Source: Deltaproteobacteria bacterium
GTDB lineage: Bacteria; UBA10199; DSSB01
Assembly: GCA_021414045.1 (NCBI GenBank)
Contig: JAIOPF010000313.1
Location: 1-8,902 of the forward strand
Direction: 5' to 3'
Length of the DNA stretch: 8,902 nucleotides
Below the pieces are notes generated by a model, which did not search any database, was not told the origin of the DNA, and saw nothing but the letters and a program-made list of their open reading frames with translations. The translations under genes were made by a program, and so were the position numbers. Positions 1,739 to 8,639 of the stretch are shown one piece after another; within the stretch, counting starts at the first letter, position 1, and each line of letters opens with the position of its first letter.

Positions 1739-4700
1739 ATGACAGGTCTGCATCGTCCGGCAGGATTTTCGCCGGACAAGCAAGCCGAGAAGATCACCTT
1801 TGCGCCCGGCCCAAGGCCGGAGAGCACGGGCCCATTATTGTCTGAATGGTTGGGGGGCTTAGTCACCCCGAGGGCCGGACAGGGATTCTCCCTGCAAAAA
1901 TTATCCGCAGCGGAAAATAAGGCCCTTGAAAAAAAATTGGGTCCTCAGGGACTTTTGGAAATCCTCGCCTTATCCGAAGAATCCGATCCTGAAATCTTCT
2001 ATCAAACATGGTGGAATTTCGCACTGCGCCAGCAAGACGCAGGCAATCTTGAGGTGGCGGTTTCCGTCTACCAGCGGTTGGCACAGGGAGACTCTTCTCT
2101 GCGAGAGACCGCCCAACGCCAATGGGACGCCTTGGCCGGACGCGGTTCGGTAGGTGGGCGCCTGGAAGTTTTGCTAGGACAATTTTCCGAACAGGCCACC
2201 GATCCCGCCATGCTGGGGGGCATGTTGGTTGCTTCAACTGTTTTCCAAGGGACCCGATTGCTCGGTCTCTCCAGGCTCCTGTCGGCGCCTGAAGCGGGAT
2301 GGTTGACCCGCGGCGCCGGCGCTCGCTTCCTGGCTTCTTCCATGGGTTTCGCCGCCGAGGTTCCGAGCTTCTTGCTTACGAGCAAGGGCCTCCATCAGGC
2401 CATGGGCAAATCGCAGGATTGGTCCTCGCGGGCCTTGCTGGGAGAGGGCTTCGGATTGGGTTTGAACCTATTATTCCTCAAGAGCTTCGGAGCTCTCGGT
2501 CGCCGGGGCGTCGAGACCTTGGGCACAGGGACCCTCCGAACGGCTCCCGGCCTAATCAAGCGGATTTCGGCCGACTTGTTTCCCCAGGCGGCCAGTTTCG
2601 CCGGAATTTATTTGGGGCATCGCGCCGAGATCGCATTGGGGCTTCGCCCCCACCTTGACGATGCCACCACCCTGACGGATTCCTTGACCTTCCTTTTGCA
2701 ATTTCATGTTGGCGGCCAACTGAGCGGCGCGCTGCAGGGGCCTAAGTTCGCTCGGACCGTACGCGAGATGGAAATCCTGTCTGGAACGCTGGCGCCGCGC
2801 CCGAGAACGGCCGGGACGGGCGGCTTTGGTTCTTGGCGGTTTGGTTTCGAGGCTCCGAACTCCGTCGCCTCTTCACCCAATTTCGAATTCTTCAAAGAGG
2901 GTCCGAGTCCAGCCCCGACGCAACTAAAGCCGGCCTTCGAACCCCTTTTCATGTCGTCGTTCAGCAGTGGGGAATCCTCGGCCAAGGAATTTCTCGAGCG
3001 CCGTCTCCGGATGCTCCTGATGGAAAAACTCGAAGTTGGTTCCACGGCGGCTCCCGAATTGCAGGATAAGTTTCCCTCGAAGGTGGCGGAGATCGCGGAA
3101 AATTTCGCTCACACCCCCGACGTGGACGCGGAACGTTATTTTGGACTGATGCGAGACAGCCAATTGCAGGATATCGCCCATGAGGACGGAAGGGTGACAA
3201 CCCGAGTTGAGCAGCTTTCGGTGGCGGCCAAGTATTTCCGCTACGTGAAGGAAATGAATACCTTTCGCCGCGCCATCGGATCTCTCTACGATCACCTTGT
3301 GCAAGAGGCCTTCGAGCGCGTCATTGCCGAAGGCGGCATCGCCGACTTCGATGCCTTGGTCCGCGTCGCCGGTGTGCATCGTCGTATCGAGGCGGTGGAG
3401 AAATTCCTGCAGGAAAGGCAATGGTCGGCGCGTTACCGCTTCTTCGATAAGCCCGGTCTGGCACCCGCCACTCCTTCCTCCCGACCTTCCGCTTGGCTGT
3501 CGAGGGCCCGGGACTGGTTCAGCCCCTTCCGAAGAGTGGAGACTTCCCAACAGGAACCCGTATGGCTGCCAAAGCTGAGTTCGCTGCCGCTTTCCGTGGA
3601 AAGCCGGAGAGCCATCGAACGCTACTTGCGTAGCTTCGACGACGGAGAAGCCGCCGCTCCCTTTCGAGACAAGGCGCACAATTACATTCTATGGAAGCCC
3701 AAGCAGGATGGCTCGCGGCGCGAGGCATTCACGGTCCAAGTCGCCATGGAGGGCCTCTCCGCTTACATGAGAACCTGGCAGGGTCACACCCGCTTCATCC
3801 GGGTATTGGAGGATGCGGTGGTTCCCTTGCTGCATTTCGACCGGATATTCAAAGTGCTGGCGACACGGGACTTGCCGCATAAGATCGCCGAAGTCGCCTC
3901 TTCGGAAGAGTTCCACTGGGGGCAGCTCGAGGGATTCCTGGAGCTTTCCCAAGAAGAAGAGGGTTACGATTCCACCGTCGCTAAGATCAACGGGACGGTA
4001 TACACCGGATACCTCTATGACCGCGTCCTGGCGGAGAAGTTCGCCCGTTTCTACCAAAACGCCGGAATCTACATGCACGACGTCGAAATGAAGATTCGTC
4101 TGGGACGCTTTCATCACCGCGCCCAAGAATTGCTCGAAAGCAAGGTCACCCAAAAAATAAAGGCGTGGGTCGATGAAAAGGCCAAGGTAGGCTTTGCCGC
4201 CCCCGCCATGCAGGAGATCCAGGCCAAACGTCATTTCTTCCAGGGCCAAGTCAATTACGACAAGCCGGAAATTCTCTCCATGCTGCGATTGAATCCGACT
4301 CCGGTGGCCAAAAGGGCCATTGAGGCCATCGAGGGGGGAGAAGTCGACTTGCGGGTTTTTAGCAAGGATCAGCTGAGGAATTTGTGGCGTGGTTTGCCGC
4401 ACGGCGAGCGCGACAAGGAGCCGCCGCAGGCGATTTTCGTCCCCGCCCACAAGAACCCGGGCCGTCGGCCTTTGATTGCGGTCACGGAATTGGATCCCAA
4501 TCTCACCTTCGACCAAAAAATCCTCCGCGCGATTTCGTTGGCGGCCATCACTGTCCACGAATTCGAGCATTATCTCCACGCCGATTTGGACAACGTCATG
4601 ATCTCGGAAATGCGTTCGTGGCTGGAAGAAACCTATTTTTTGATGCACCACGGGGAATTGGGCCCTTGGTATGAAATGCAGGAAACCGCTCCCTACGGGT

Positions 4701-4774
4701 TCGGGATTTATCTCCGCAATTTGGTCGACAAGGATTATCTCGAAGGGCCTCGCGACGTGGTGTTTCAGCCTTGA
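1739..4774 (+). CDS. Large two-part protein: hydrophobic paralogous N-terminal module and C-terminal HExxH metallopeptidase-like domain
   Basis: 1011 residues, not a family I can name. Residues about 86-117 look like a TPR-type helical pair. Residues 130-337 are a Gly/Ala-rich region with several hydrophobic stretches (about 157-180, 197-215, 235-253, 281-302, 313-334) that is clearly paralogous to the next gene. Residues about 345-410 are a Pro/Ser/Gly-rich linker. Residues about 415-900 are charged and mostly helical. The C-terminus carries strand-like segments (PQAIFVPAH, PLIAVTEL) and then a helix with H940-E941-F942-E943-H944, the zinc-binding and catalytic HExxH motif. E957 and E963/E964 follow as possible third ligands. 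This spacing resembles ImmA/IrrE-like and other gluzincin-type proteases, but the assignment is inference from the motif. No signal peptide is seen, so the N-terminus probably starts in the cytoplasm or at a membrane. The start is set by an AGGGGG site 7 bases upstream. It lies in tandem with the phosphatase gene (171-base gap) and the paralogue (117-base gap). A substrate cannot be proposed. Confidence 0.85.
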   Translation: MTGLHRPAGFSPDKQAEKITFAPGPRPESTGPLLSEWLGGLVTPRAGQGFSLQKLSAAENKALEKKLGPQGLLEILALSEESDPEIFYQTWWNFALRQQDAGNLEVAVSVYQRLAQGDSSLRETAQRQWDALAGRGSVGGRLEVLLGQFSEQATDPAMLGGMLVASTVFQGTRLLGLSRLLSAPEAGWLTRGAGARFLASSMGFAAEVPSFLLTSKGLHQAMGKSQDWSSRALLGEGFGLGLNLLFLKSFGALGRRGVETLGTGTLRTAPGLIKRISADLFPQAASFAGIYLGHRAEIALGLRPHLDDATTLTDSLTFLLQFHVGGQLSGALQGPKFARTVREMEILSGTLAPRPRTAGTGGFGSWRFGFEAPNSVASSPNFEFFKEGPSPAPTQLKPAFEPLFMSSFSSGESSAKEFLERRLRMLLMEKLEVGSTAAPELQDKFPSKVAEIAENFAHTPDVDAERYFGLMRDSQLQDIAHEDGRVTTRVEQLSVAAKYFRYVKEMNTFRRAIGSLYDHLVQEAFERVIAEGGIADFDALVRVAGVHRRIEAVEKFLQERQWSARYRFFDKPGLAPATPSSRPSAWLSRARDWFSPFRRVETSQQEPVWLPKLSSLPLSVESRRAIERYLRSFDDGEAAAPFRDKAHNYILWKPKQDGSRREAFTVQVAMEGLSAYMRTWQGHTRFIRVLEDAVVPLLHFDRIFKVLATRDLPHKIAEVASSEEFHWGQLEGFLELSQEEEGYDSTVAKINGTVYTGYLYDRVLAEKFARFYQNAGIYMHDVEMKIRLGRFHHRAQELLESKVTQKIKAWVDEKAKVGFAAPAMQEIQAKRHFFQGQVNYDKPEILSMLRLNPTPVAKRAIEAIEGGEVDLRVFSKDQLRNLWRGLPHGERDKEPPQAIFVPAHKNPGRRPLIAVTELDPNLTFDQKILRAISLAAITVHEFEHYLHADLDNVMISEMRSWLEETYFLMHHGELGPWYEMQETAPYGFGIYLRNLVDKDYLEGPRDVVFQP
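2126..2749 (+). other. Paralogous hydrophobic module, copy 1 (residues 130-337)
   Basis: By-eye alignment with the downstream 645-residue protein gives 14/26 identities (residues 130-155 against 86-111), 21/49 (205-253 against 160-208) and 22/56 (282-337 against 227-282), each block without internal gaps. Shared landmarks are D-A-L-x-G-x-G, R-x-E near residue 141, A-T-D at 153-155, E-V-P at 207-209, L-N-L at 242-244, and H294-R295-x-E297 followed by A-L-G-L-R-P to 304. The region is Gly/Ala-rich and hydrophobic, which suggests membrane association. That role is inferred. Confidence 0.8.
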
Positions 4775-4854
4775 TTCGTCCGCACAACTTGTTTTATCCC
4801 CGCACGATACTTGATGAGCAAGGGCTCGGGGCTCGGAAGCACTCCTCCTGTTAT

Positions 4855-4880
4855 CGCCGATTCTCCGGCGGGTTTCCCCG
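4855..4880 (+). other. Two overlapping short hairpins ahead of the 645-residue protein gene
   Basis: CGCCG (4855-4859) can pair with CGGCG (4866-4870), and alternatively CGGG (4869-4872) with CCCG (4877-4880). The two share bases and would exclude each other. Only TTT follows, then AAAATCAC and the ATG at 4892. They are too short to call a terminator. They could affect translation of the next gene, or be chance in GC-rich DNA. Confidence 0.2.
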
Positions 4881-4891
4881 TTTAAAATCAC

Positions 4892-6829
4892 ATGAAGCTT
4901 GATTCATCTCGACTTCGGGACTTGGTCTCGGATCCCGCGGCCTCCGCGGAATTGGAGGCCATTTTCCAGGAAAACCAGGCGCCACTCCTGCTGCGGGAGC
5001 TGGGAGGTTTCGCGCGCCGGCAGGCCGAAGCGGGACGCGTCGAGGCCGCGGCGGGCATCGATGCTTGGATTGCCCGGTTGCCGCCAGAAACCGGAATCAA
5101 TGCCGGTTCTATTGCCGCTATCGCGGCGGAGGCAAGGGCCGACCTGGATGCCTTGAGGGGACAAGGCCCTTTTGGCCGCCGGATGGAATTTTTGACGCGG
5201 CGTTTTTCCCGCGATGCCACGGATTATCGGACGATCCTTCCCATGATGCTCGGCGGGCTTGCCGGAACCTATGCCGGCACGCTGGTGCTGGGGAGGTTTT
5301 CCGCTGGAGTGCAAGTCGGGTTTGGCGGCGCGCTAAGGGCCAGAGCTTGGGCCGGAGCCGCCGCTCTTGCCGTCGAGGTTCCGATCTATTCGCTCTCAAG
5401 CCGGGCCTTGTCGGCATGGAGCGGGACTCCCCAAGCCTGGGATTCGCCTTCTCTGGCGGGCGATTTCTTTTCCTGTCTGCTCAACCTCGGCGCCATGAAA
5501 TTGGGCGGGGCCTTGGGAGAAGAAGGGCGCGCGCTTTCGCGGGGTTTCGGTACGGTCGGCTCGACCCTGCCCATGCTCACGCAATTCTCGGCGTTGCTGG
5601 TCACCCACCGTTTGGAGGCGGCCTTGGGCCTTCGCCCGAAAGCCGACCTTGCCGCCGAGATGACGGATGGATTGGCGACGCTCTTGAGCTTGGAGGCGGG
5701 GGCCAGAGTCGGTCGTCGGATTTTGGGTCCCGGTTTTCGTGCCCTGCAAGCGAGATTGCAATTTCGGAATAAACTCTATCGCCAACGGCCTTTTTCAAGA
5801 TTGCCGTTGAGCGGAAGTTATTTCCCCCCGAAAAAAGGAGATTCCAGTCTGGTCTTAGTCTTGCCTTTACTGGGGATGATGGGAACGTCTTGGCGGGAAC
5901 CGAAGGCCGCGCTGGCGGTGGGCGCGGCCTGTTTCGGCATGGCCTTGTGGGATAGAATCTTGCGGCCGAGAAACGGGGACGGCCGTCTCGATGATCCCAT
6001 CCATTTAGGTCCGGAAAGAAATCGAGGGCTATCCCACGGCAGGCGGGAGCCCATGTCCCTTTTGCAAATGGAGGAATCCGATTTGCGATTGGGAAATGAA
6101 ATTCCCTTCATCAAGAAAACCGTCCTGGAAGATTATTGTCTCTTGGGAAACTGCACCGTCGGGAAGATCGGTGGTTACTGGTGGATTTTCCGCGAATTCG
6201 AGAGCCCCTTTTTCGGCAGATTGACCTTTTTGCCCGGCTCTCGGCCGGAGGTCGTGGCGAAGGTGGGAAACCTCTATCCGTTGGACTCGCAAGATCAATT
6301 TTTAATGGACGCCATGAGCTACGTCTGGGACCGGGAGAGAAGCGCGGATGCAGAACCGCGGCAAAGCCTCGATGTCCGAACCTTGAACCGCCACATCCTG
6401 CTGGGAGACCTGCGCGGGATTCGGCAGGCGGGAGTTTACTACCGGGACGATTTCGCCCGAAACCTTTCGATCCATTACCAGGCCATCCAAGTCAATCCCT
6501 ACCCAGTTCATCCCACCTGGAATGCGCTGATCGATCCCCGCAACGGTCTCATCGCGGCTTTGGGAAGCGGGGCGGCTTCAGGCATGGAGGGGATGGTACG
6601 GGTCAAAATGCATTTCGACAGGCTGACTCCGGAACCGACCTACCAACCACGGATTAGGCGCTTGGAATTTTTCGAAGGGTGGCAACCGGAAGAACCCTTG
6701 AGAGGACAATTGGAAGGCTTGATAGGCTTGGAGGTGAGGCCTCTATTGTTGCATCCGATGGTTGTCTTGGATGCGAGGAGAAATGGCCTGCCGGAAATCC
6801 CACTGCCCGCCCAGGCCCCATTGAGGTAA
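4892..6829 (+). CDS. Paralogue of the upstream 1011-residue protein, with a different C-terminal domain
   Basis: 645 residues, function unknown. Residues about 31-62 are TPR-like and match the upstream protein (A-x-R-Q, then A-G, then E-x-A). Residues 86-282 are the shared Gly/Ala-rich hydrophobic module, including H239-R240-x-E242 and A-L-G-L-R-P to 249. Two further hydrophobic segments follow at about 318-330 and 339-354, probably membrane-spanning. Next come a charged Arg/Gly-rich linker (about 355-390) and an unrecognised C-terminal domain of about 250 residues, with aromatic-rich strands around G427-W431 and a YPVHPTW stretch at 537-543. I see no HExxH and no PP2C motif, so the C-terminal part is not equivalent to that of its neighbour. 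No signal peptide is visible. The ATG at 4892 lacks a Shine-Dalgarno sequence (GTTTAAAATCAC precedes it). It is still the most likely start, because a TPR-like segment shared with the paralogue begins soon after. The stop overlaps the T-tract of the convergent terminator. Confidence 0.82.
   Translation: MKLDSSRLRDLVSDPAASAELEAIFQENQAPLLLRELGGFARRQAEAGRVEAAAGIDAWIARLPPETGINAGSIAAIAAEARADLDALRGQGPFGRRMEFLTRRFSRDATDYRTILPMMLGGLAGTYAGTLVLGRFSAGVQVGFGGALRARAWAGAAALAVEVPIYSLSSRALSAWSGTPQAWDSPSLAGDFFSCLLNLGAMKLGGALGEEGRALSRGFGTVGSTLPMLTQFSALLVTHRLEAALGLRPKADLAAEMTDGLATLLSLEAGARVGRRILGPGFRALQARLQFRNKLYRQRPFSRLPLSGSYFPPKKGDSSLVLVLPLLGMMGTSWREPKAALAVGAACFGMALWDRILRPRNGDGRLDDPIHLGPERNRGLSHGRREPMSLLQMEESDLRLGNEIPFIKKTVLEDYCLLGNCTVGKIGGYWWIFREFESPFFGRLTFLPGSRPEVVAKVGNLYPLDSQDQFLMDAMSYVWDRERSADAEPRQSLDVRTLNRHILLGDLRGIRQAGVYYRDDFARNLSIHYQAIQVNPYPVHPTWNALIDPRNGLIAALGSGAASGMEGMVRVKMHFDRLTPEPTYQPRIRRLEFFEGWQPEEPLRGQLEGLIGLEVRPLLLHPMVVLDARRNGLPEIPLPAQAPLR
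5147..5737 (+). other. Paralogous hydrophobic module, copy 2 (residues 86-282)
   Basis: Counterpart of the module at 2126-2749, aligned block by block with about 40-54% identity. The copy is about 11 residues shorter overall, with the differences in the loops between conserved blocks. The two copies diverge enough that they represent an old duplication and not a recent tandem repeat. Confidence 0.8.
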
Positions 6830-6897: not shown

Positions 6898-7137
6898 TTA
6901 CTTCGCCGGTTCCGCGGGCTTTTCGGCCGGAGGCGCCTTCGGGGTTTCCTTGGCCGCGGCGGCATCAGTGGTCGTGGCCGGCTTCGCGGTGTGGTGTTTG
7001 CGCGCCGTGCGGTGATAGTTCCCGCCCTGCGGATCGCCGATTGCTAGGTCGCTACCGTTGGCGGCGGCGTGAGAAACGGCCACGTTGACCATGGGGAATA
7101 AGGCACTTAAAGCCAAAACCAGTGCTACTTTTTTCAT
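6898..7137 (-). CDS. Small secreted Ala/Lys/Pro-rich peptide
   Basis: 79 residues. The N-terminus is a typical Sec signal peptide: Lys-Lys, a hydrophobic core of about 16 residues (ALVLALSALFPMVNVAV), then S-H-A-A with probable cleavage near residue 24-25. The mature part of about 55 residues is polar and low-complexity, with a His/Arg/Lys patch (H-R-T-A-R-K-H-H) followed by Ala/Lys/Pro/Glu/Thr repeats ending in PAEPAK. It has no catalytic motif and is probably disordered in the periplasm or outside the cell. The start at 7137 is chosen because AAGGAG lies 5 bases upstream and the signal peptide begins there. A longer in-frame start at 7194 would put 19 polar residues in front of it. Composition recalls acid-shock-type or envelope-associated small proteins, but no homology is claimed. 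It has its own candidate promoter and a strong terminator, so it is likely a separate transcript. Confidence 0.8.
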   Translation of the reverse strand: MKKVALVLALSALFPMVNVAVSHAAANGSDLAIGDPQGGNYHRTARKHHTAKPATTTDAAAAKETPKAPPAEKPAEPAK

Positions 7138-7142
7138 GAGAT

Positions 7143-7148
7143 CTCCTT
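7143..7148 (-). promoter_or_regulatory. Ribosome binding site of the small secreted peptide
   Basis: On the minus strand AAGGAG is followed by 5 bases and then the ATG at 7137. This is the best Shine-Dalgarno site in the window and it decides the start over the upstream in-frame ATG at 7194. Confidence 0.8.
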
Positions 7149-7178
7149 TGTACCAGGGAATGTTGAAAAACCGCCGCA

Positions 7179-7206
7179 AAGATACAGGCTTCACCTATGA
7201 TTGCAA
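7179..7206 (-). promoter_or_regulatory. Candidate sigma-70-type promoter for the small peptide gene
   Basis: On the minus strand, TTGCAA (7206-7201) is separated by 16 bases from TATCTT (7184-7179), each close to the TTGACA and TATAAT consensus. It lies in the 84-base gap after the CorC-like gene and would give a leader of about 35 bases before the ATG. Two hexamers with acceptable spacing are suggestive, not proof. Confidence 0.45.
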
Positions 7207-7221
7207 GGCCGAAAATACTGC

Positions 7222-8565
7222 CTAATGACCGTTCGCCGCGTTGGGCTCTTCCTCCGACTTTTCGAACAACAACTTGAGGACACGGCGATTTTTGACCTCG
7301 AGGGCCGAAATTCGGTAGGGTGGAAGGCGAATCGTGTCGCCCTCCCGGGCCAGCCGTCCTAAATGGTTGATGAAAAATCCCCCCACCGACACCGAGTTGT
7401 CGTCTTCCAAGGAAAGATCGAGGACCTGCTCGATGTCGCGCAAGGTCGCCGTGCCGTCGACGAGGTAGGAATTTTCGCTGCGCTTGCTCACCTTCGGGAG
7501 CTCTTGGTCGAATTCGTCCTGAATCTCGCCGACCAATTCCTCGATGACGTCCTCGAGCGAGACCAGTCCCGCAGAAGTTCCGAATTCGTTGATGACGATG
7601 GCCATGTGGATCTTCTTCGTCTGGAATTCGCGCAGCAATTGGTCGCTGGTGACGGATTCGGGAACGTAGAGGATGGGGCGCTTGAGGTCGTAGAGATTGA
7701 TGAGGTTGTCGCTGTCTTCCAGGGCCCAGATCACGTCCTTGATGTTGATGAGCCCGATCACGTGGTCGAGGTCGCCGTCGCAGAGCGGGAATCGCGTGTG
7801 CCCGGATTCCTTGGCGATGCGCAGGTTTTCTTCCGAGGAATGGCTTAGCTGCAGGTAGACGATGTCTTGGCGCGGCACCATGACCTGGCGCGCGGTGCGA
7901 TGCGTGAATTCGAAGATGTTCTCCAAAAGGGAAGCCTTGCGCGGCGAGAGAGAGCCTTCCTCGTAGGAGTCTTCCACGATCAGGCGGATTTCGTCCTCGG
8001 TATGGGTTTCCTCGCCGGGCTTCATCTCGAAGCCGAGCAAGCGCACGATGGCGTTGGTGGTGTTGTTGAGGAACCAGAGAAAGGGAAAGAAAACCCAATA
8101 GAAAAACCGCATCGGCACCGCGACGAAAAGCAGGACCTTTTCGGCGGTCTGGATCGCCATCTGTTTGGGAACCAACTCGCCCACCACCAGATGCAACACG
8201 GTGATGACGGTGAAGGCCGTCGTGAAGGCGATGCCGTGAATGGTGCCTTCGCTGAGCGCGAAATTTCGGAGCAGGGGTTCGATGAGGGAGGCAAAAGCCG
8301 GTTCGCCGACCCAACCTAGGCCCAAGCTCGCCAGGGTGATGCCGAGCTGGGTCGCGGAAAGATAGGCGTTGAGGTTCAGGACGATGGAATAGGCCCAACG
8401 CGCCAGGAAATTTCCGCTGTCTTGCAGCGTCTCGAGCCGGGTGGTGCGAACCTTGACCATGGCGAACTCGGCGGCCACAAAAAAGCCGTTGAGTAGGACC
8501 AAGAGCAAGGCGATCGTCAGGTACCAGGGGGAAATCTCGTGGGGGGAAAGGGACGAATTAGACAT
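7222..8565 (-). CDS. HlyC/CorC-family membrane protein (CNNM/DUF21, CBS pair, CorC_HlyC domain)
   Basis: Inner-membrane protein of the family that includes CorC, TlyC and YtfL, associated with divalent-cation (Mg/Co) efflux or homeostasis; 'hemolysin' names are historical. From the start at 8565 it has 447 residues, normal for the family. Residues about 15-180 form the DUF21/CNNM transmembrane domain, with N-G-F-F-V-A-A-E-F-A at 26-35, L-S-A-T-Q-L-G-I-T at 69-77 and the G-E-L-V-P-K signature at 129-134. The CBS pair follows (V-M-V-P-R at 238-242; about 297-355 with E-F-G-T-S-A-G-L-V at 336-344 and E-D-V-I-E-E-L-V-G-E-I at 347-357). The C-terminal CorC_HlyC domain (about 375-437) includes D-G-T-A at 380-383 and S-V-G-G-F at 402-406. 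The start is uncertain. ATG 8565 has only a weak GGA upstream; ATG 8583 and GTG 8625 are in frame, but ATG 8583 overlaps a TATAAT and the AGGAG at GTG 8625 runs into the start codon. I chose 8565 because the first membrane segment follows closely. All domains look intact. Confidence 0.93.
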   Translation of the reverse strand: MSNSSLSPHEISPWYLTIALLLVLLNGFFVAAEFAMVKVRTTRLETLQDSGNFLARWAYSIVLNLNAYLSATQLGITLASLGLGWVGEPAFASLIEPLLRNFALSEGTIHGIAFTTAFTVITVLHLVVGELVPKQMAIQTAEKVLLFVAVPMRFFYWVFFPFLWFLNNTTNAIVRLLGFEMKPGEETHTEDEIRLIVEDSYEEGSLSPRKASLLENIFEFTHRTARQVMVPRQDIVYLQLSHSSEENLRIAKESGHTRFPLCDGDLDHVIGLINIKDVIWALEDSDNLINLYDLKRPILYVPESVTSDQLLREFQTKKIHMAIVINEFGTSAGLVSLEDVIEELVGEIQDEFDQELPKVSKRSENSYLVDGTATLRDIEQVLDLSLEDDNSVSVGGFFINHLGRLAREGDTIRLPPYRISALEVKNRRVLKLLFEKSEEEPNAANGH

Positions 8566-8581
8566 AAATTCCGAAGTCACC

Positions 8582-8587
8582 ATTATA
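8582..8587 (-). promoter_or_regulatory. Possible -10 box of the CorC-like gene
   Basis: TATAAT on the minus strand is a perfect -10 match just upstream of the ATG at 8565, and it overlaps an alternative ATG at 8583. The only -35-like sequence is TTGCCC, 15 bases away, which is short spacing. If real, the transcript would start within about 10 bases of the 8565 ATG and favour that start. Confidence 0.3.
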
Positions 8588-8639
8588 TAGCTTAGGGTCC
8601 TCGGGCAACCCAGCGATTTTTCCACTCCTGAATGAAATT

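Follow-up and report, generated by a model that had tools for sequence, protein, structure and literature searches.

The stretch analyzed here, referred to as the window, is the 8,902-nucleotide (nt) contig JAIOPF010000313.1 from a Deltaproteobacteria bacterium. It carries two tandem genes, P0001 and P0002, whose products share an N-terminal module but end in unrelated C-terminal domains, termed passengers below. Judged by profile searches, the module is an undescribed family of ~270 residues that occupies the N-terminus of dozens of unrelated passengers per genome. The function favored here, with a probability of roughly 0.4, is recruitment: the module would act as an address domain through which its passengers gather at one shared site, either membrane-associated or self-assembled.

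Both open reading frames (ORFs) named in the first-pass annotation of the window are present, and the homology of their N-terminal parts, together with the lack of it in their C-termini, stands. The modules share 32% identity over 285 aligned columns (BLASTP, E 4e-23; residues 69–337 of P0001 versus 15–282 of P0002). The three separate blocks in which they had been aligned by eye do not, as the alignment is one continuous region that takes in the TPR-like lead-in. The proposed signature, H-R-x-E then A-L-G-L-R-P, occurs in both proteins, as HRAEIALGLRP at residues 294–304 of P0001 and HRLEAALGLRP at residues 239–249 of P0002.

A constant platform with swapped C-termini, often in tandem, had been suggested from this single pair, and the arrangement proved to be common. 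Profile searches recovered 219 module ORFs in fetched stretches of eight genomes, with 188 of them covering at least 240 of the 270 profile positions, and 48 tandem pairs. A well-known family of fixed architecture was the alternative raised at the outset; no Pfam or NCBIfam model was found for the module, and among the first 25 families listed none has matches in more than 4 of the 56 module proteins scanned. For the window's own genome (2.6 Mb in 385 contigs, 84% complete), P0002 as the query gave 57 match rows; apart from the self match, none reaches beyond query residues 5–361, in the N-terminal part of P0002. A profile built from these matches identified 56 ORFs, fragments included, among 1173 ORFs of at least 100 aa in 41 contigs, with match contigs C45, C80, and C149 left out of the contigs read. 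A genome of the same genus (G001), rated 100% complete, yielded 85 match rows and 78 module ORFs in fetched stretches. The match rows of these two genomes include a few pieces of one gene, and the matches of three others (G002, G003, and G004) were fetched in part. Copy numbers are lower bounds because the genomes are drafts, with many ORFs cut by contig ends. An in-frame TGA occurs in one match row of each of the first two genomes (1 of 57, contig C176, locus L036; 1 of 85 in G001, contig C53, locus L086).

With a broader profile, 8 of the 46 class genomes searched proved to carry the module. A large expansion, of 41 to 56 matches per genome with 55 candidates scored in each, is seen in five members of one family. 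Outside that family, an order-level relative (G007) has 11 matches, and two more genomes have 2 and 1. None of 14 genomes outside the class carries the module, with 42–55 candidates scored per genome, as in the alignment searches generally. A profile search of 5.8 billion proteins scored 7993 candidates, of which 194 reached E 1e-5 or better, and the named sources among the 120 matches listed are “Deltaproteobacteria bacterium” or “bacterium” records.

The module is predicted by AlphaFold2 to be all-helical, with a TPR-like lead-in followed by five long apolar helices. Superposition of predicted folds had been put forward as a check on the shared module; the models of the two modules agree in helix order, and they are not independent because their alignments share most rows. 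A Foldseek search with the predicted fold gave no significant match. Among 27 sequences, core helices h1–h5 are apolar all around (mean Eisenberg hydrophobicity 0.38–0.58, moment 0.08–0.26, 10–14% charged), a property in which the TPR-like lead-in differs from them. The maximum Kyte-Doolittle mean over 19 residues exceeds the usual transmembrane threshold of 1.6 in 12 of 139 modules, and a hydrophobic N-terminal stretch was detected in 1 of 139 proteins. The apolar core helices are consistent with being buried either in a membrane face or within an assembly. Family-wide, the 40 residues preceding the module carry a weak Leu-/Arg-rich motif (308 versus 161 for one shuffled set).

Module and passenger are joined by a linker, which in P0001 is predicted to be disordered from its predicted local distance difference test (pLDDT) values. 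A motif approximating P-x-I/V-L/F-M-M-S-G-x-G-E-G scores >5 in 147 of 175 non-redundant linkers, at a median of 43 residues past the module; its log-likelihood, scored on its own training set, is 974 versus 259 for one shuffled set. A second, upstream motif, approximating R-P-A-L-A-x-A-G and taken from the 139 linkers with room for it, reaches 431 versus 174 for one shuffled set, no per-sequence threshold being applied. The recurrence of these motifs ahead of unrelated passengers points to a putative common binding or processing partner. If the partner were a protease, the upstream motif (~P-A-L-A-x-A-G) would be a processing site and the module a pro-domain that is cut off to release the passenger, and both the alternating Ala residues of this motif and its location in a predicted disordered stretch of P0001 suit this explanation. 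Signal-peptidase AxA boxes, however, closely follow a transmembrane segment, and the last core helix is only moderately apolar and ends earlier than in that layout. No protease partner is known, a docking motif accounts equally well for the conservation, and processing is considered improbable.

The passengers are diverse. Fifty C-termini of at least 60 aa in the own genome fall into 40 groups at E 1e-5, while 166 C-termini of at least 100 aa from seven genomes form 77 groups at E 1e-10, 40 of which are single. Pfam matches above the family cut-off were obtained for 19 of 48 own-genome C-termini and comprise phosphofructokinase (PFK), biotin carboxylase (two), protein kinase (four, one followed by an FGE-sulfatase domain), HATPase (two), PAS, sigma-70 (two, one with an amine oxidase), ResIII helicase (two), HTH, PadR, FHA, a methyltransferase plus aminotransferase, and a type I fatty acid synthase (FAS). 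Among 68 C-termini of G001, further families at E 1e-8, taken from tables that in part list the first 25 families, are GGDEF, RelA_SpoT, amidase, PALP, AA_permease, and FHA. In G007, the module is carried by PutA (Pro_dh E 3.9e-60, Aldedh E 4e-103), a HATPase-domain protein, and a kinase with an FGE-sulfatase domain. Catalytic motifs are complete in the inspected kinases, PFK, biotin carboxylases, and HExxH members. Another module protein of G007 (locus L140, 2109–5759, + strand) has a C-terminal match to the Gp49/DUF891 family (E 9.2e-6).

Some passengers belong to lipid synthesis. A 2556-residue module protein of G001 contains the biotin-carboxylase and carboxyltransferase parts of a multidomain acetyl-CoA carboxylase (ACC; 5csk_A, E 1.2e-117), and the adjoining gene encodes the module plus FAS beta (7q5s_B, E 2.9e-292, versus a best E of 1.1e-116 for the other listed type I FAS group). 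We take both of these chains to be of fungal type. Fungal type I FAS and multidomain ACC are the best matches of these two passengers, and the bacterial proteins differ from them in having the module at the N-terminus. Module-ACC proteins range from 2430 to 2556 residues. Behind the module-ACC of G004 come two more module proteins, one with a ketosynthase match (best E 9e-20) and one that has no match. A FAS beta part nearer to fungal-type chains than to other listed type I FAS is encoded at loci L110 (10457–15154, + strand), where the multidomain ACC adjoins it, and L025 (3–5417, − strand). Of the 46 class genomes, 13 have the FAS helical domain, PF08354. In G024 (contig C5, ~78200–84934, partly locus L224), Pro_dh and FAS helical domain matches lie in one 6454-aa open frame, possibly a giant protein.

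Fused enzymes may have unfused counterparts in the same genome. For instance, fused PFK is present in the own genome, G003, and G004, with an unfused PFK match alongside in 3 of 3 (that of the own genome being a contig-edge fragment); in G001 and G002, the second PFK matches run into contig ends and fall outside this count. Stand-alone biotin carboxylases likewise exist alongside the fused copies. Pro_dh is present in 31 of 46 genomes of the class, and ten Pro_dh loci from other genomes showed no module within flanks of 1.5 kb, where a distant N-terminus may be missed.

The main rival explanation is drawn from the same list of passengers. In it, the module would serve as a sensory or allosteric input domain of a new kind, binding one signal, such as lipid or membrane state, and switching many outputs at once. 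Classic signaling outputs indeed make up many of the passengers, including histidine kinases with PAS, Ser/Thr kinases, GGDEF, RelA/SpoT, FHA, HTH, and sigma factors. Membrane-associated sensor domains pair one input with many outputs in this way, and MASE1-type sensors resemble the module in that a single apolar helical domain at the N-terminus serves several kinds of output domain. Unlike these sensors, 127 of 139 modules lie under the transmembrane threshold, the predicted disordered linker (P0001) would be a poor allosteric relay, and the passengers also include metabolic proteins, namely ACC, type I FAS, ketosynthase, PFK, PutA, an aminotransferase, and a permease. A sensory role is accordingly rated as unlikely, if the foremost of the alternatives. 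Related literature is found in PMC6510439, on sensor domains such as MASE1, and PMC8846402.

Gene arrangement and sequence divergence bear on how the family arose. The 48 same-strand neighbor pairs of module genes lie <500 bp apart, with a median gap of 34 nt, a maximum of 230, and 3 of 48 gaps of at least 200 nt; five pairs overlap by >250 nt, which probably reflects frame-shifted halves or an ORF start placed too far upstream. Where both C-terminal types are known, 4 of 33 tandem pairs share the type. Module identity between tandem neighbors has a median of 56% (33 pairs) versus 39% for random same-genome pairs, the P0001/P0002 pair being diverged (32%). This pattern suggests local duplication with C-terminal replacement; alternatively, gene conversion among tandem neighbors may have produced the closer modules. 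Across genomes, the fusion is kept in 85 reciprocal-best C-terminal pairs, and module and C-terminal identity are correlated (Spearman 0.89) in the 78 of these with at least 150 aligned module residues. Purifying selection is alike on the two parts, with median omega values of 0.197 (16 modules) and 0.200 (14 C-termini), calculated from the 16 of 20 listed G001–G002 reciprocal pairs with >200 module codons. On the module tree, built with FastTree alone, 35 C-terminal types on 127 rows need 71 changes, where the least is 34 and 200 shuffles gave a mean of 107.7 and a minimum of 102. As read from this tree, the history of module and passenger is partly vertical with many partner changes.

The same data speak to the proposal that the module has no common function today, having spread by tandem duplication and fusion and simply been carried along. 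On its side are the signs of duplication with C-terminal change and the few broken copies (in-frame stop in 1 of 57 and 1 of 85 rows). It is very improbable nonetheless, given that purifying selection on modules equals that on C-termini, that the linker motif recurs ahead of unrelated passengers, and that the 85 reciprocal pairs keep their fusions across species.

Polymorphic effectors, or alternatively envelope-anchored enzymes, were the classes first proposed for the platform. The module family resembles polymorphic toxin and effector systems, as described in PMC3482391, in having a constant N-terminal and a variable C-terminal part (here, 166 C-termini in 77 clusters), tandem arrays, and diversification by recombination. 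By this analogy, the module would be a delivery domain that exports passengers into neighbors or prey, to which the HExxH domains, the Gp49/DUF891-type C-terminus of G007, and the eukaryote-like ACC and FAS could be added. Unlike in polymorphic toxins, however, the recognized passengers are housekeeping-type enzymes and regulators, and C-termini evolve slowly (median omega 0.2). Among recognized C-termini, toxin-like candidates are limited to the Gp49/DUF891 match and the HExxH domains, 29 of 48 own-genome C-termini being unrecognized. There is no recognized secretion-type N-terminal domain. No immunity gene lies between tandem members in the 48 gaps of the surveyed tandem pairs, which are too small to hold one. 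Sigma factors, GGDEF proteins, histidine kinases, a permease, and the ACCs of 2430 to 2556 residues all suit the home cell. A type VI secretion system (T6SS) sheath gene was not found in the 6 genomes searched, this being the only secretion route covered. Delivery is regarded as quite unlikely, and the effector class is a poor match for recognized passengers that are mostly cell-internal; the proteins may yet be envelope-anchored enzymes.

If the module is instead an address domain, its apolar helices would insert in a membrane face, or pack on each other or on a common partner, and the TPR-like lead-in and linker motif would supply contacts. The passengers would then amount to a second set of enzymes, metabolic and regulatory, that is set apart in space. 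New members of the family probably originate when the module is duplicated in tandem and the copy captures another C-terminus. The nearest known likeness is to the encapsulation peptides of bacterial microcompartments (BMCs; PMC7221423 and PMC12108088), which are tags that direct unrelated pathway enzymes to one place. The module differs from these in being a folded 270-residue domain rather than a short peptide, and in tagging regulators as well. The BMC shell family PF00936 was found in 0 of 6 genomes (3 of which are at least 90% complete), as was encapsulin by the single Pfam family tried, PF04454.

Several observations weigh against the address-domain reading. No docking partner, shell, or scaffold was identified, with the searches for BMC shell, encapsulin, and T6SS sheath negative in 6 genomes, and hydropathy is ambiguous, with 127 of 139 modules below the transmembrane threshold. 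Over its full length, the linker changes somewhat faster than the module and C-terminus do (omega 0.12 to 0.62, median 0.26, 16 pairs), so that the short motifs are what stands out. Many passengers are signaling domains, which are compatible with a sensory input domain too, and no Pfam match above the cut-off was obtained for 29 of 48 own-genome C-termini. With respect to second copies, G003 has two PFK matches beyond the fused one, and the sole Pro_dh match of G007 is the module-fused one; thus, the module marks second copies and, at least once, a single copy. Finally, no module was found in two genomes of the expansion family (73% and 82% complete).

As for the window itself (Table 1), the HExxH domain noted at the end of P0001 is well founded. 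HExxH and a downstream Glu, the gluzincin-type hallmark, are found in P0001 and retained in 9 of 9 C-termini related to its passenger. No match to a known peptidase family, or to any Pfam family or PDB sequence, was obtained for this passenger at E 1, and it is, by its motif, a metalloprotease-like domain without a known family. An orthologue of P0001 in G001 has the identical architecture and, in the C-terminal part, is 45% identical over 729 columns. P0002 has no Pfam match at E 1, and none of the 166 C-termini is related to its passenger at E 1e-5. The two membrane-like segments assigned to this protein are doubtful, as the Kyte-Doolittle maximum of its C-terminal part is 1.49 (19-residue mean, residues 339–357), under the usual threshold. 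P0003, presumably PP2C-like from its DGMGGHEGG motif, is 60% identical over 514 columns to the gene preceding the P0001 orthologue in G001, so the position is kept; in both contigs, the N-terminal part is lost at the contig end.

Table 1. Features of the window, with positions, strands, and the basis of each assignment (HMM, hidden Markov model; pTM, predicted TM-score).
Feature	Position	Strand	Basis
P0003, presumed PP2C-like phosphatase, 5′-truncated, upstream of P0001	2..1567	+	motif DGMGGHEGG; no Pfam match
P0001, 1011 aa: N-terminal tail, module, disordered linker, HExxH passenger	1739..4774	+	ORF listing, BLASTP, family profile
Module of P0001 (residues 74–344), TPR-like lead-in plus apolar helical bundle	1958..2770	+	family HMM E 2.6e-91, P0001 being among its training sequences; AlphaFold2 pLDDT 83 over residues 59–425
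P0001 linker motif PAFEPLFMSSFSSGESS (residues 398–414), predicted disordered stretch	2930..2980	+	family linker motif; pLDDT <50 at residues 365–413
P0001 passenger HEFEH (residues 940–944) plus Glu957, gluzincin-like metal site	4556..4609	+	comparison of related C-termini
P0002, 645 aa: module, then passenger without recognized relatives	4892..6829	+	ORF listing; Pfam; C-terminal comparison
Module of P0002 (residues 20–289)	4949..5758	+	family HMM E 3.3e-68, P0002 being among its training sequences; AlphaFold2 pLDDT 89, pTM 0.79 over residues 1–320
P0002 degenerate linker motif GMMGTS (residues 328–333)	5873..5890	+	chosen by eye
Small ORF, 98 aa, signal-peptide-looking stretch plus Ala/Pro/Lys-rich tail	6898..7194	−	
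Ordinary CNNM/CBS/CorC_HlyC transporter-associated protein	7222..8625	−	

A bolder extension of the address-domain reading, regarded here as doubtful, is that of a genome-wide sorting code. The module and linker motif would assign several dozen enzymes and regulators per genome to an intracellular compartment that lacks a shell, or to a membrane domain, amounting to a new kind of bacterial organelle proteome. Kinases, sigma factors, a second phosphofructokinase, and a second ACC/FAS line for lipids would be among the proteins so sorted. Should the module prove sensory instead, it would represent an unusually broad regulatory input that reaches kinases, sigma factors, GGDEF and RelA/SpoT proteins, and fatty-acid synthesis. 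If it is an address tag, a sizeable part of the proteome would be sorted by one folded domain, a form of sorting known for eukaryotic organelles and, by way of short peptides, for microcompartments. The co-residence of proteins would then be readable from sequence, and the module would offer a ready-made candidate domain for gathering enzymes.

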